From a bacterium (GTDB lineage Bacteria > Armatimonadota > Fimbriimonadia > Fimbriimonadales > Fimbriimonadaceae), in NCBI GenBank assembly GCA_027483535.1, contig JAIXUN010000002.1, positions 62,001 to 126,000 on the forward strand: a DNA stretch of 64,000 nucleotides, read 5' to 3'. A program made the position numbers and the translations under genes. The notes under the pieces are model-generated. The model saw only the letters and a program-made list of their open reading frames with translations, was not told the DNA's origin and made no database searches. Shown here piece by piece: positions 9,403 to 55,856 of the stretch (within the stretch, counting starts at the first letter, position 1; each line of letters opens with the position of its first letter).

Positions 9403-9546
9403 TGCGAGCGAGTAGGTGTTGGTATCCGGTTACACCCTACTCATCGACCACCCATTCTCGAATATCTAACAATTAATTAGCATCACTGTTAGACTGGTCG
9501 AGTGCTCCTGGCGAGATTGCCTGGAACCACGCCACAGGGGATATCC

Positions 9547-10422
9547 ATGATTCGTTCTTTTACTTTTGGCGCTATTGCGTTTGCCGCCATGCTTGCTCCG
9601 ACTGCTTCCGCTCAGTTTTCCCTTACCGGATCAAACATCGACTCCGGAGGCGATTTTGGTGACCTCGGAAACGGCACCTTCTCAGGGACTTACTCTGGTC
9701 CATCGACTATCTATACGAGCTTCAACGTGACGGGAACCCTGAACTCGGTGAATCCTGCCACCTTCGCCGATGAAGCAGTCTTGGAGTTTGTAAACAACAC
9801 AACTTCCTCTTCGTTTCGGTTTCGACCGGACCTTACGGCTTCCACCTTTTCGTCGATAGCCGTGAACAGAACGGTTGATGCTCTAGCGTGGTTCAACACC
9901 AACGATAGCGCGACTGTAACCGCTTTCGAGTCTTACGATGATGGTGCCGGCGCGGATTCTAACTGGCAATCGATTTCGACGACTTTTAGGGGGAGCCTCA
10001 ACACCACGAGTCTTGGCAACCTTGGTCCGAATGTCACATTCGACACTTTTGGATCGACGATCGTTGATACAGAGATCGCTGTTTACAGCATGAACGGCAC
10101 CCTGATCGGAGCGAATGACGATTCGACTTCGGGGCTCCTGAGTGAACTTGCCTTATCGGGTCTGGCTGCAGGCACTTATCTCGTGGTGGTTGGGGGCTAC
10201 GACACCGGATTCACCGACTTCCTGGCTATCGCAGGTTACGCTGAAGACTCCGAAACAGGTGATGGAGTCCTCAATATCAATGGCGCGCTGGGCGCCTCGT
10301 ATACCATCGGCACTAATGAGCTTGAGGTGTACAGCTTTAATGTTGTTCCGGAACCTGGAACCATGCTTGCTCTCGGCGTAGGGGCAATGGCGCTTCTTCG
10401 CCGTCGATCCAAGAAATCCTGA
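9547..10422 (+). CDS. PEP-CTERM sorting domain protein (secreted)
   Basis: A 291-residue exported protein. It has a classical signal peptide (MIRSFTFGAIAFAAMLAPTA, cleavage near ASA-QF) and ends with VVPEPGTMLALGVGAMALLRRR, the PEP-CTERM signal: PEP motif, hydrophobic helix and arginine cluster processed by an exosortase. The middle is Ser/Thr/Asn-rich, and VDTEIAVYSMNGTLIGANDD resembles pre-peptidase-like beta domains that often precede PEP-CTERM. The ATG at 9547 is chosen for the signal peptide and the upstream AGGGGAT; the frame is open from 9502. Expected location is the cell surface or matrix. Confidence 0.88.
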   Translation: MIRSFTFGAIAFAAMLAPTASAQFSLTGSNIDSGGDFGDLGNGTFSGTYSGPSTIYTSFNVTGTLNSVNPATFADEAVLEFVNNTTSSSFRFRPDLTASTFSSIAVNRTVDALAWFNTNDSATVTAFESYDDGAGADSNWQSISTTFRGSLNTTSLGNLGPNVTFDTFGSTIVDTEIAVYSMNGTLIGANDDSTSGLLSELALSGLAAGTYLVVVGGYDTGFTDFLAIAGYAEDSETGDGVLNINGALGASYTIGTNELEVYSFNVVPEPGTMLALGVGAMALLRRRSKKS

Positions 10423-53101: not shown

Positions 53102-53129
53102 TTCAGGCTCTATTTCGCATTAAGTGTGA

Positions 53130-53168
53130 TGAGTCCCTTCCGGATTCCGGAAGGGACTCATTTTCTTT
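53130..53168 (+). terminator. Rho-independent terminator
   Basis: Stem GAGTCCCTTCCGG (53131-53143) / CCGGAAGGGACTC (53147-53159), exact 13-bp arms, loop of three, then TTTTCTTTC. It follows the His-rich protein gene. Confidence 0.9.
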
Positions 53169-53191
53169 CGATAAAGCCGATAAAATGGGGC

Positions 53192-54898
53192 ATGCCCATT
53201 GGTCGGTTTCTCCTGTGCCTTCACTCGCACATGCCTTATGTGCTTAGTCACGGGAAGAGTCCGCACGGGACCGACTGGCTGCACGAAGCGGCGGTGGAGT
53301 GCTACCTCCCGCTGCTCGACGCGCTGGATCGACTGGAGGCAGAGGGCATCAAGCCTCGTTGGACCATCAACGTCACCCCCATCCTTGCTGAGCAGCTTGC
53401 CGACCCCACTTTCTGCGACGAGTTTGAGGAGTACTGCAAAGACAAAATCGAATCCGCCAAGTTCGACATGCAGGGCTTTCGAGCCAAGAACGAAATGTGG
53501 ATGGAAGGGCTTTCCATCTTCTGGATCAAACGGTTCGAGAAGGCGCTGGACGACTTCCGCAACAAGTGGGATCGAAACATTGTTCAGGGCTTTCGACACT
53601 TTCAAGACATAGGCGCAATCGAGATCATCACCTGTGGAGCCACCCACGGATACCAACCGCTGTTGGGTACGGACGAATCCTGTCGGGCTCAGGTGAAGCT
53701 GGCGACCCAAAACTACGAAAAGCACTTTGGCAAAAAGCCGCGCGGTATTTGGCTTCCGGAATGCGCTTACCGACCCCGGTACGACTGGAAATCACCCGTT
53801 GCCGATAACGAGGTGGCCTGGCAACGAATGGGCACCGAAGAGATTCTAAAGGACAACGGAATCGAATTCTTCTTCGTGGACTCCCACATGATTCGCGGAG
53901 GAGCCCCGCTGGGCACCTACGGCGCGAAGTTTCCTCAGCTAGCCGAGATGTTTGCTCGGAGCAGCAAGTACTTCACTCCGCCCGCCGAGTTTCGCAGCGA
54001 GTACGAGCACTACATGCTGCCCAACGGCGTCACCTGCTTTGCCAGAGACCCTCAGACCACGGTGAAAGTGTGGTCGGGCGAAGTGGGCTATCCCGGCGAC
54101 CCCGCCTATTTGGAGTTCCACAAGCAGCTCTACCCGGGTCGACACCGGTACTGGCGCATCAGCGAGAACAAGGCTGACCTGGGTGCGAAGCAGCCGTACG
54201 ATCCGTACAAGGCTTTCGAATCCATTGTCAATCACGCCAAAGACCTGGTGGACGTTCTGAAAGAAACCTTGGCGCACTATAAGGGCATGGCCAACCGAAC
54301 CGGGACCCTGGTGGCGATGTACGACACCGAGCTTTTTGGTCACTGGTGGTTCGAAGGTCCGGAGTTTCTGTACCAACTGGCGCGTAACTTCCACTTAGAT
54401 GGCGAGATCGAGATGGTCTCGGGCGGAGACGTGCTAGATACCGACCCGGCGCAGCACGTGATCACCCTTCCCGAAGGATCATGGGGAGAAGGTGGCTACC
54501 ACTTTATTTGGCTGAACGAAGACAACGCCTGGACCTGGAAACGGCTTTACGAGATTCAGCGCAAGTTGCGGCAGATGGCTCGGGAGTACGCCAACGGTCC
54601 GGCGGACCGAATTGTGAAACAAGCCGCTCGAGAGATGCTGCTCGCAGAGGCTTCCGACTGGCAGTTCCTCATTAGCACCTGGGCGGCAAGAGACTATTCT
54701 GAGATTCGATTTGCCGATCACTGCGATCGCTTCGAGCGGCTGGCTGGAATCGCAGATCGAGTGCACGGGGGCGGATCGCTCACGGCGGAAGAGGCGATCT
54801 TCCTTGCCGAGTGCGAGGACAAGGACAGTCCGTTCCAAGAGCTCGATTTGAGCCTTTGGTCGGACGACCCTTTGTGGGCGGAATCCGCAAAATCCTGA
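53192..54898 (+). CDS. Glycoside hydrolase family 57, 1,4-alpha-glucan branching enzyme type
   Basis: A 568-residue enzyme with the AmyC/TK1436-like architecture. The N-terminal motif is LCLHSHMPYV (residues 8-17), the nucleophile is Glu190 in GIWLPECAYRP, and the acid is Asp378 in AMYDTELFGHWWFEGPE. The C-terminal DUF1957 helical region has SDWQFLISTWAARDYSEIRF. It would introduce alpha-1,6 branches into glycogen in the cytoplasm. ATG 53192 is chosen; the frame opens at 53126 in the terminator hairpin of the previous gene. A CIRCE element lies 11 bases after its stop. Confidence 0.92.
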   Translation: MPIGRFLLCLHSHMPYVLSHGKSPHGTDWLHEAAVECYLPLLDALDRLEAEGIKPRWTINVTPILAEQLADPTFCDEFEEYCKDKIESAKFDMQGFRAKNEMWMEGLSIFWIKRFEKALDDFRNKWDRNIVQGFRHFQDIGAIEIITCGATHGYQPLLGTDESCRAQVKLATQNYEKHFGKKPRGIWLPECAYRPRYDWKSPVADNEVAWQRMGTEEILKDNGIEFFFVDSHMIRGGAPLGTYGAKFPQLAEMFARSSKYFTPPAEFRSEYEHYMLPNGVTCFARDPQTTVKVWSGEVGYPGDPAYLEFHKQLYPGRHRYWRISENKADLGAKQPYDPYKAFESIVNHAKDLVDVLKETLAHYKGMANRTGTLVAMYDTELFGHWWFEGPEFLYQLARNFHLDGEIEMVSGGDVLDTDPAQHVITLPEGSWGEGGYHFIWLNEDNAWTWKRLYEIQRKLRQMAREYANGPADRIVKQAAREMLLAEASDWQFLISTWAARDYSEIRFADHCDRFERLAGIADRVHGGGSLTAEEAIFLAECEDKDSPFQELDLSLWSDDPLWAESAKS

Positions 54899-54908
54899 TC
54901 CGATTTCA

Positions 54909-54935
54909 TTAGCACTCGTTTTTGTCAAGTGCTAA
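54909..54935 (+). promoter_or_regulatory. CIRCE element (HrcA operator)
   Basis: TTAGCACTC (54909-54917), nine bases, AAGTGCTAA (54927-54935). The CIRCE consensus is TTAGCACTC-N9-GAGTGCTAA; this site matches 17 of 18 positions. TTGTCA within the element followed after 15 bases by TATTAA (54943-54948) is a possible promoter, so HrcA binding would block it. The element lies 104 bases before the next gene. Confidence 0.9.
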
Positions 54936-54982
54936 TGCCTAGTATTAATACGGGTTTATCGGACGTTTCGGCTGAAAAACCC

Positions 54983-55011
54983 TTGACGAACGACCCATAA
55001 GGCTCTTAAAA
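54983..55011 (+). promoter_or_regulatory. Second promoter candidate downstream of CIRCE
   Basis: TTGACG (54983-54988), 17 bases, TTAAAA (55006-55011). It would start transcription about 20 bases before AAAGGAG and the ATG at 55040, and would allow CIRCE-independent expression. Confidence 0.4.
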
Positions 55012-55039
55012 CCGTTTCTCTCATCAAAGGAGAATCGCC

Positions 55040-55609
55040 ATGAGCCAAGAACATTCCTCATCATTCGGTCATGATCCGATCCCCTCCGCGGGGTCGCCGA
55101 ACTTCAGTATCGGAGAGTCTTCGGTGCGAGCGTTCTTTCGAGACACGCTTCACGATGCGCTGACGGGCCAGATTGGTCTGAAGCAGATCGATGCCGCCGA
55201 GACGTACCTTTCCGACCTGCTGGTTCGGTTTCTGCACACCGACGCTCAGTTCGCCATTCGGAATGCGGAGGGTCAGCGCGTGCGGACGGTTGCGGAGATG
55301 CTGGTGGAAGGTGACGTTCGGTTTGCGGCAAAATCCTTCAAGCGGGAGCGAGAGGTTCACCGCCACATCGGCGACCTGATGCTCTTTTGGACGGGCGTGT
55401 TCCCAAAGGGCATCAAGGGAGTTGCTGAACCCGGCGATACGCTGATCGATCCGGTGGAGCGGGGTCGGGTGAGCTACGATATCGCGGCGAGCTTCGATCA
55501 TCCGCCTTACGACGCGGAGGCTCCGGTGTTGCGGCTGCTCAGTGACAACTTTGAGGCGTATCGGTACGGACTGCACTTGGTCGGGAAGCAGATGGGCTTG
55601 GCGAGCTAG
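55040..55609 (+). CDS. Unrecognised cytosolic protein under a CIRCE element
   Basis: A 189-residue protein with no signal peptide or membrane segment. I do not recognise the family. It contains FSIGESSVRAFFRDTLHDAL, a helical stretch to about residue 70 (KQIDAAETYLSDLLVRFLHTD), VRTVAEMLVEGDVRFAAKSFKREREVHRHIGDLMLFWTG near 95 and a C-terminal YDIAASFDHPPYDAEAPVLRLL. AAAGGAGAATCGCC before the ATG is a strong ribosome-binding site. The CIRCE site upstream predicts HrcA-controlled heat-shock expression, so it may be a stress or protein-quality factor; that is an inference from regulation alone. Confidence 0.75.
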   Translation: MSQEHSSSFGHDPIPSAGSPNFSIGESSVRAFFRDTLHDALTGQIGLKQIDAAETYLSDLLVRFLHTDAQFAIRNAEGQRVRTVAEMLVEGDVRFAAKSFKREREVHRHIGDLMLFWTGVFPKGIKGVAEPGDTLIDPVERGRVSYDIAASFDHPPYDAEAPVLRLLSDNFEAYRYGLHLVGKQMGLAS

Positions 55610-55631: not shown

Positions 55632-55856
55632 ATGATCGACCCTAACATCGAATGGCCTCTCCATGTGTCTGACCGATTGGATCCGGATCATCACTACATA
55701 GCGCCTGACGTCAAAGAACTGGGTTACTACGTGGAGTTCTGGAACTCTCCGTTAGAAGTAGATAGCGATTCTTGGGAGATAGTTGACGCAAAGGGCAGGC
55801 GAGTTGTGGGATTTATTGAGCGCCTAGAAGTAAGGTCCCTTTATCTGGATGAGTAA
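55632..55856 (+). CDS. Small acidic orphan protein
   Basis: A 74-residue protein starting at ATG 55632 (GAGCAAGG upstream). The sequence is acidic with WPLHVSDRLDPDHHYIAP and a C-terminal RVVGFIERLEVRSLYLDE. No hydrophobic segment or known domain. It follows the CIRCE-controlled gene by 22 bases and might be in the same transcript. It could be an immunity-like protein but no toxin is nearby. Confidence 0.4.
   Translation: MIDPNIEWPLHVSDRLDPDHHYIAPDVKELGYYVEFWNSPLEVDSDSWEIVDAKGRRVVGFIERLEVRSLYLDE

Follow-up and report, generated by a model that had tools for sequence, protein, structure and literature searches.

The best reading of the data is that the gene for an uncharacterised 189-aa protein is a lineage-specific target predicted to be under HrcA control in this Fimbriimonadaceae genome. 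By every available sequence test, the element preceding this gene is a real CIRCE, the operator of HrcA. We consider it likely that HrcA represses the gene through this element and that the repression is relieved, together with that of groESL, under folding stress.

The CIRCE element and its surroundings

The features around the element are collected in Table 1, with positions given in the window, i.e. the whole 64-kb stretch of DNA that was analysed. The element reads TTAGCACTC-GTTTTTGTC-AAGTGCTAA, that is TTAGCACTC-N9-AAGTGCTAA, and the canonical consensus is TTAGCACTC-N9-GAGTGCTAA, through which HrcA controls groESL and dnaK operons (PMC3842655). The sole mismatch among the 18 positions is the first base of the right arm, an A for the consensus G. 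Nothing else in the window comes within three mismatches of the consensus; dinucleotide shuffles give an expectation of 0.01. For the whole genome (3.77 Mb, 56% GC), approximately 0.002 matches (0.0022) with at most one mismatch are expected by chance, and approximately one with at most three. The original prediction, which had recognised a CIRCE with 17 of 18 consensus positions, is borne out by these figures.

Table 1. Features of the window around the CIRCE element
Feature	Position	Strand	Basis or remark
GH57/BE_C branching-enzyme gene (upstream context)	53126..54898	+	ORF list and family match
CIRCE element (HrcA operator)	54909..54935	.	17/18 consensus positions
Weak promoter-like stretch TTGTCA-15-TATTAA (uncertain)	54922..54948	+	Read from sequence; overlaps the CIRCE right arm
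Ribosome-binding site AAAGGAGA	55026..55033	+	Read from sequence; 6 bp before ATG
Gene for 189-aa uncharacterised all-helical protein, proposed HrcA target	55040..55609	+	Next ORF after the element
74-aa ORF, possibly co-transcribed	55632..55856	+	22 bp downstream of the 189-aa gene

The element begins 10 bp past the stop codon of the GH57/BE_C gene and its RNA forms a stable hairpin, as might be expected if it were a chance palindrome, or a terminator hairpin of that gene, merely resembling CIRCE. The hairpin is indeed more stable than those of shuffled sequences (z -3.8), and better-than-shuffle folding is true of any palindrome like CIRCE. However, there is no T-run after the hairpin, the terminator scan made no call there, a match this good is hardly expected even once in several hundred such genomes, and all other CIRCE sites of the genome are located at groESL; we regard this explanation as highly improbable. 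Rfam and PADLOC gave no match.

The GH57/BE_C gene lies on the same strand and ends before the element, which therefore cannot be its operator, as had been argued when the site was first noticed. Downstream of the element there is no gene other than the 189-aa one, whose well-formed start (ATG) lies 104 bp from the element end, and the upstream gene points towards the element. The promoter-like stretch of Table 1 was not called by the promoter scan, and no strong or clear promoter was recognised around the CIRCE site. No relative of the 74-aa ORF was seen in the homologue loci.

HrcA and its predicted regulon

The genome contains one hrcA gene (PF01628, E 1.4e-38, C1:1743577-1744254) and four CIRCE sites with three or fewer mismatches, of which the element described here is the best. 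The other three comprise a tandem pair before groESL-1 and one site before groESL-2, and the element is closer to the consensus than these functional groESL sites of the same genome. The arrangement parallels the canonical CIRCE-HrcA system in operator sequence and spacing, in the presence of HrcA, in the co-directional gene downstream and in the CIRCE sites carried by both groESL operons. It differs in two respects: the gene behind the element is not a known chaperone, and within the 3.7 kb seen around hrcA no CIRCE is recognisable, even with five mismatches allowed.

HrcA is an active repressor as long as GroELS is available and releases its targets when folding stress sets in (PMC3842655). 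We propose that HrcA, active while free GroEL is available, would bind the element and keep the 189-aa gene from being transcribed. Once GroEL is taken up by misfolded proteins, in heat or other folding stress, HrcA would lose its activity, and the 189-aa gene would then be induced together with the two groESL operons. The operator, its rarity, the groESL company, the hrcA gene and the position of the element are observed, and the binding, repression and induction are modelled on the known HrcA mechanism. Cells would thus probably produce the 189-aa protein when protein folding goes wrong.

HrcA is present in 82 of the 85 genomes of the taxonomic family, and 77 of the 85 carry at least one CIRCE site with three or fewer mismatches. 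Fifteen further sites were inspected in these relatives; those at or upstream of groES/groEL are clear, while several with three mismatches fall inside coding sequence and look like chance matches. A reversed-pattern control also yielded three-mismatch matches in many genomes, often one or two in each, so lone sites of this quality are not trustworthy by themselves. The one-mismatch site in front of the 189-aa gene is of a different order. The core of the predicted regulon in the genomes examined is the two groESL operons, to which the 189-aa gene is a clear extra candidate target in at least one lineage.

Targets of HrcA and CIRCE outside groESL and dnaK are known from Lactobacillus. One is hsp16 of L. 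acidophilus (PMC3179173); in L. plantarum, the predicted HrcA regulon includes genes of unknown function such as lp_1880, and an hrcA mutant was examined (PMC3842655). In these cases, as in ours, CIRCE precedes a gene that is not groESL, dnaK or hrcA, and in one of them the gene is of unknown function, but they concern another phylum and other protein families. The literature searched contained no description of CIRCE or HrcA in Armatimonadota.

Two further observations were made on CIRCE sites of the taxonomic family. At the groESL-2 sites (e.g. G000:C1:1871929-1871955), the nine-base spacer is conserved near its end, reading GGTA followed by A or C, which suggests a -10 box inside the operator. 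In G012, a genome of the same genus without the 189-aa gene, a two-mismatch CIRCE (L251:1647-1673; G012:C16:83646) lies approximately 100 bp before the gene of a 220-aa protein; this protein matches no Pfam family, and its only homologues, in two other genomes, are weak (26-28%). This gene is possibly another lineage-specific target of HrcA.

Distribution of the site among homologues

Homologues of the 189-aa gene occur in 70 of the 85 genomes of the taxonomic family, and the 700 bp upstream of each (n=70) was searched for CIRCE. The site precedes three of them, in this genome (one mismatch), G009 (two mismatches) and G015 (three mismatches); the best match before each of the other 67 has at least six mismatches, which is background. 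With up to three mismatches allowed, chance would give only about 0.008 sites in 300 bp upstream of the 70 homologues taken together, so coincidence is an unlikely reason for the recurrence. The original prediction had staked itself on the site turning up before homologues in related species, and G009 and G015 provide such cases. Among 80 loci from GTDB genomes, CIRCE was found only in L160 and L158, the records of these same two organisms.

G009 and G015 are closely related MAGs of the same genus and therefore count as one lineage. They group together in rpoB, with this genome placed elsewhere in the genus, which implies that the site was either gained twice or lost repeatedly. The protein tree is weakly resolved and does not join G009 and G015 to this genome; the closest relatives in that tree (G016, G018 and G023) possess the gene but no CIRCE in front of it. 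A common origin for the three homologues with CIRCE was considered and rejected, being contradicted by rpoB and unsupported by the weakly resolved protein tree. An ancient HrcA regulon that includes the 189-aa gene was likewise rejected, because 67 of the 70 homologues are without CIRCE and none was found at the homologue loci examined outside the taxonomic family.

Since so few relatives share the site, the link of the 189-aa gene to this switch appears recent and local. The proposal of an HrcA regulon member in Armatimonadota thus stands for this genome, given the near-consensus site, the encoded HrcA and the other sites at groESL, but does not extend to the phylum, as the 67 homologues without CIRCE in the taxonomic family itself show. 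We propose that a few Fimbriimonadaceae lineages have brought the protein family under the GroEL-HrcA circuit and that the family as a whole lies outside HrcA control. The case also shows that CIRCE sites away from chaperone genes may be confined to particular lineages, so that one site in one genome does not indicate a phylum-wide regulon.

At 53 of the 70 homologue loci, the 189-aa gene is divergent from an unnamed gene for a zinc-ribbon membrane protein; at a smaller set of loci, SprT-like and NnrD-like genes follow. The divergent partner (e.g. L160:2930-3793) is a conserved protein; it contains a membrane helix, carries a motif like ICDKYxTRKWFSI at the C-terminus and often has a zinc ribbon at the N-terminus. 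G009 and G015 keep the divergent order. In both, CIRCE lies between the two genes, separated from the divergent start by 57 bp and from the homologue by 141 bp, with the best forward promoter downstream of CIRCE. Because the site is situated between two divergent genes and nearer the other one, these two genomes do not single out the controlled gene. The distances, the forward promoter and the prevalence of the divergent pair would all suit a model in which the zinc-ribbon membrane protein gene is, or was, the real target and the 189-aa gene a bystander. In this genome, however, the pair is split; the partner resides on another contig without CIRCE, and the 189-aa gene alone lies downstream of the element, so that only this gene can be the target here. 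We consider the bystander model very unlikely.

The same rearrangement bears on another alternative, in which the element is a true HrcA-binding site with no effect on the 189-aa gene, the latter being transcribed from a downstream promoter or by read-through from GH57 and the site being neutral or left over from an earlier arrangement. In its favour, gene order around the gene is rearranged here, with the usual partner on another contig, no clear promoter overlaps CIRCE and most homologues do without it. But the element has stayed closer to the consensus than the functional groESL sites of this genome, which is unexpected for a decaying relic, and a second lineage has CIRCE in the same place. 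This alternative is unlikely, and repression of the 189-aa gene by HrcA is the explanation we prefer.

The protein family and its possible role

The 189-aa protein had been described as belonging to no known family. This holds for the curated libraries, as the protein and 58 relatives (59 members) gave no significant or convincing Pfam or NCBIfam match, but not in the sense of an orphan, since the family is broad and conserved. Besides the 70 genomes mentioned above, homologues are present in 124 of the 291 genomes of the phylum. A search of genome contigs with the single protein found no relative, and a profile search of GTDB genomes returned 192 loci, including those from Nitrospira and Methylomirabilota. 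The members share the core S-F-E-R-E-R-x-V-H-[RK]-H-[IV]-G-D-x-x-L-F-W-S-G-x-x-P, followed later by S-Y-x-x-x-S-x-F.

AlphaFold2 gave a confident all-helical model (mean pLDDT 88, pTM 0.82), and the conserved protein is probably cytosolic. No PDB chain matched the family by sequence. The best Foldseek hit against solved structures had an E of 2.0, and the best VIA-align hit (Z 5.5, rmsd 7.2 over 95 residues) is within the chance range for helical proteins. As the protein is helical, the lack of a clear fold match says little either way. Weak hits to helical proteins of the TPR-like and 14-3-3 kinds were given no weight.

The neighbourhoods and the phyla involved suggested a functional tie to the UBact-proteasome. 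In this genome, L246:281-1212 (contig C3, approximately 9443-10374) encodes UBact (PF20513, E 5e-22) and a proteasome beta subunit (PF00227), immediately upstream of the gene for the zinc-ribbon membrane protein, the usual divergent partner; in G065, the 189-aa homologue itself is beside a UBact-proteasome operon. Despite this adjacency, the 189-aa gene and the Pup/UBact ligase family do not come and go together: the ligase family is retained in each of the 15 genomes of the taxonomic family that lack the gene, and G059 and G060 have the gene but no ligase. The tie was therefore set aside. The original suggestion of a chaperone or protease partner is not supported; no family, fold or stable neighbour points to one, and beyond the groESL company nothing speaks for such a role.

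Co-regulation with GroEL, as predicted here, would be the first handle on a conserved, unannotated family spanning three phyla. A more far-reaching and doubtful idea makes the family a GroEL-linked proteostasis factor that has so far gone unrecognised and whose gene joined the HrcA regulon on two or more independent occasions in Fimbriimonadaceae. If this were true, its function in Armatimonadota, Nitrospira and Methylomirabilota could be approached via the heat-shock circuit.

Outside the taxonomic family, the neighbours of the homologues vary by clade. At Nitrospira loci (e.g. L191 and L205), whose genes were named by reading the sequence alone, a MurJ-like gene and a further gene lie upstream of the homologue and an isoaspartyl-peptidase-like gene lies downstream.
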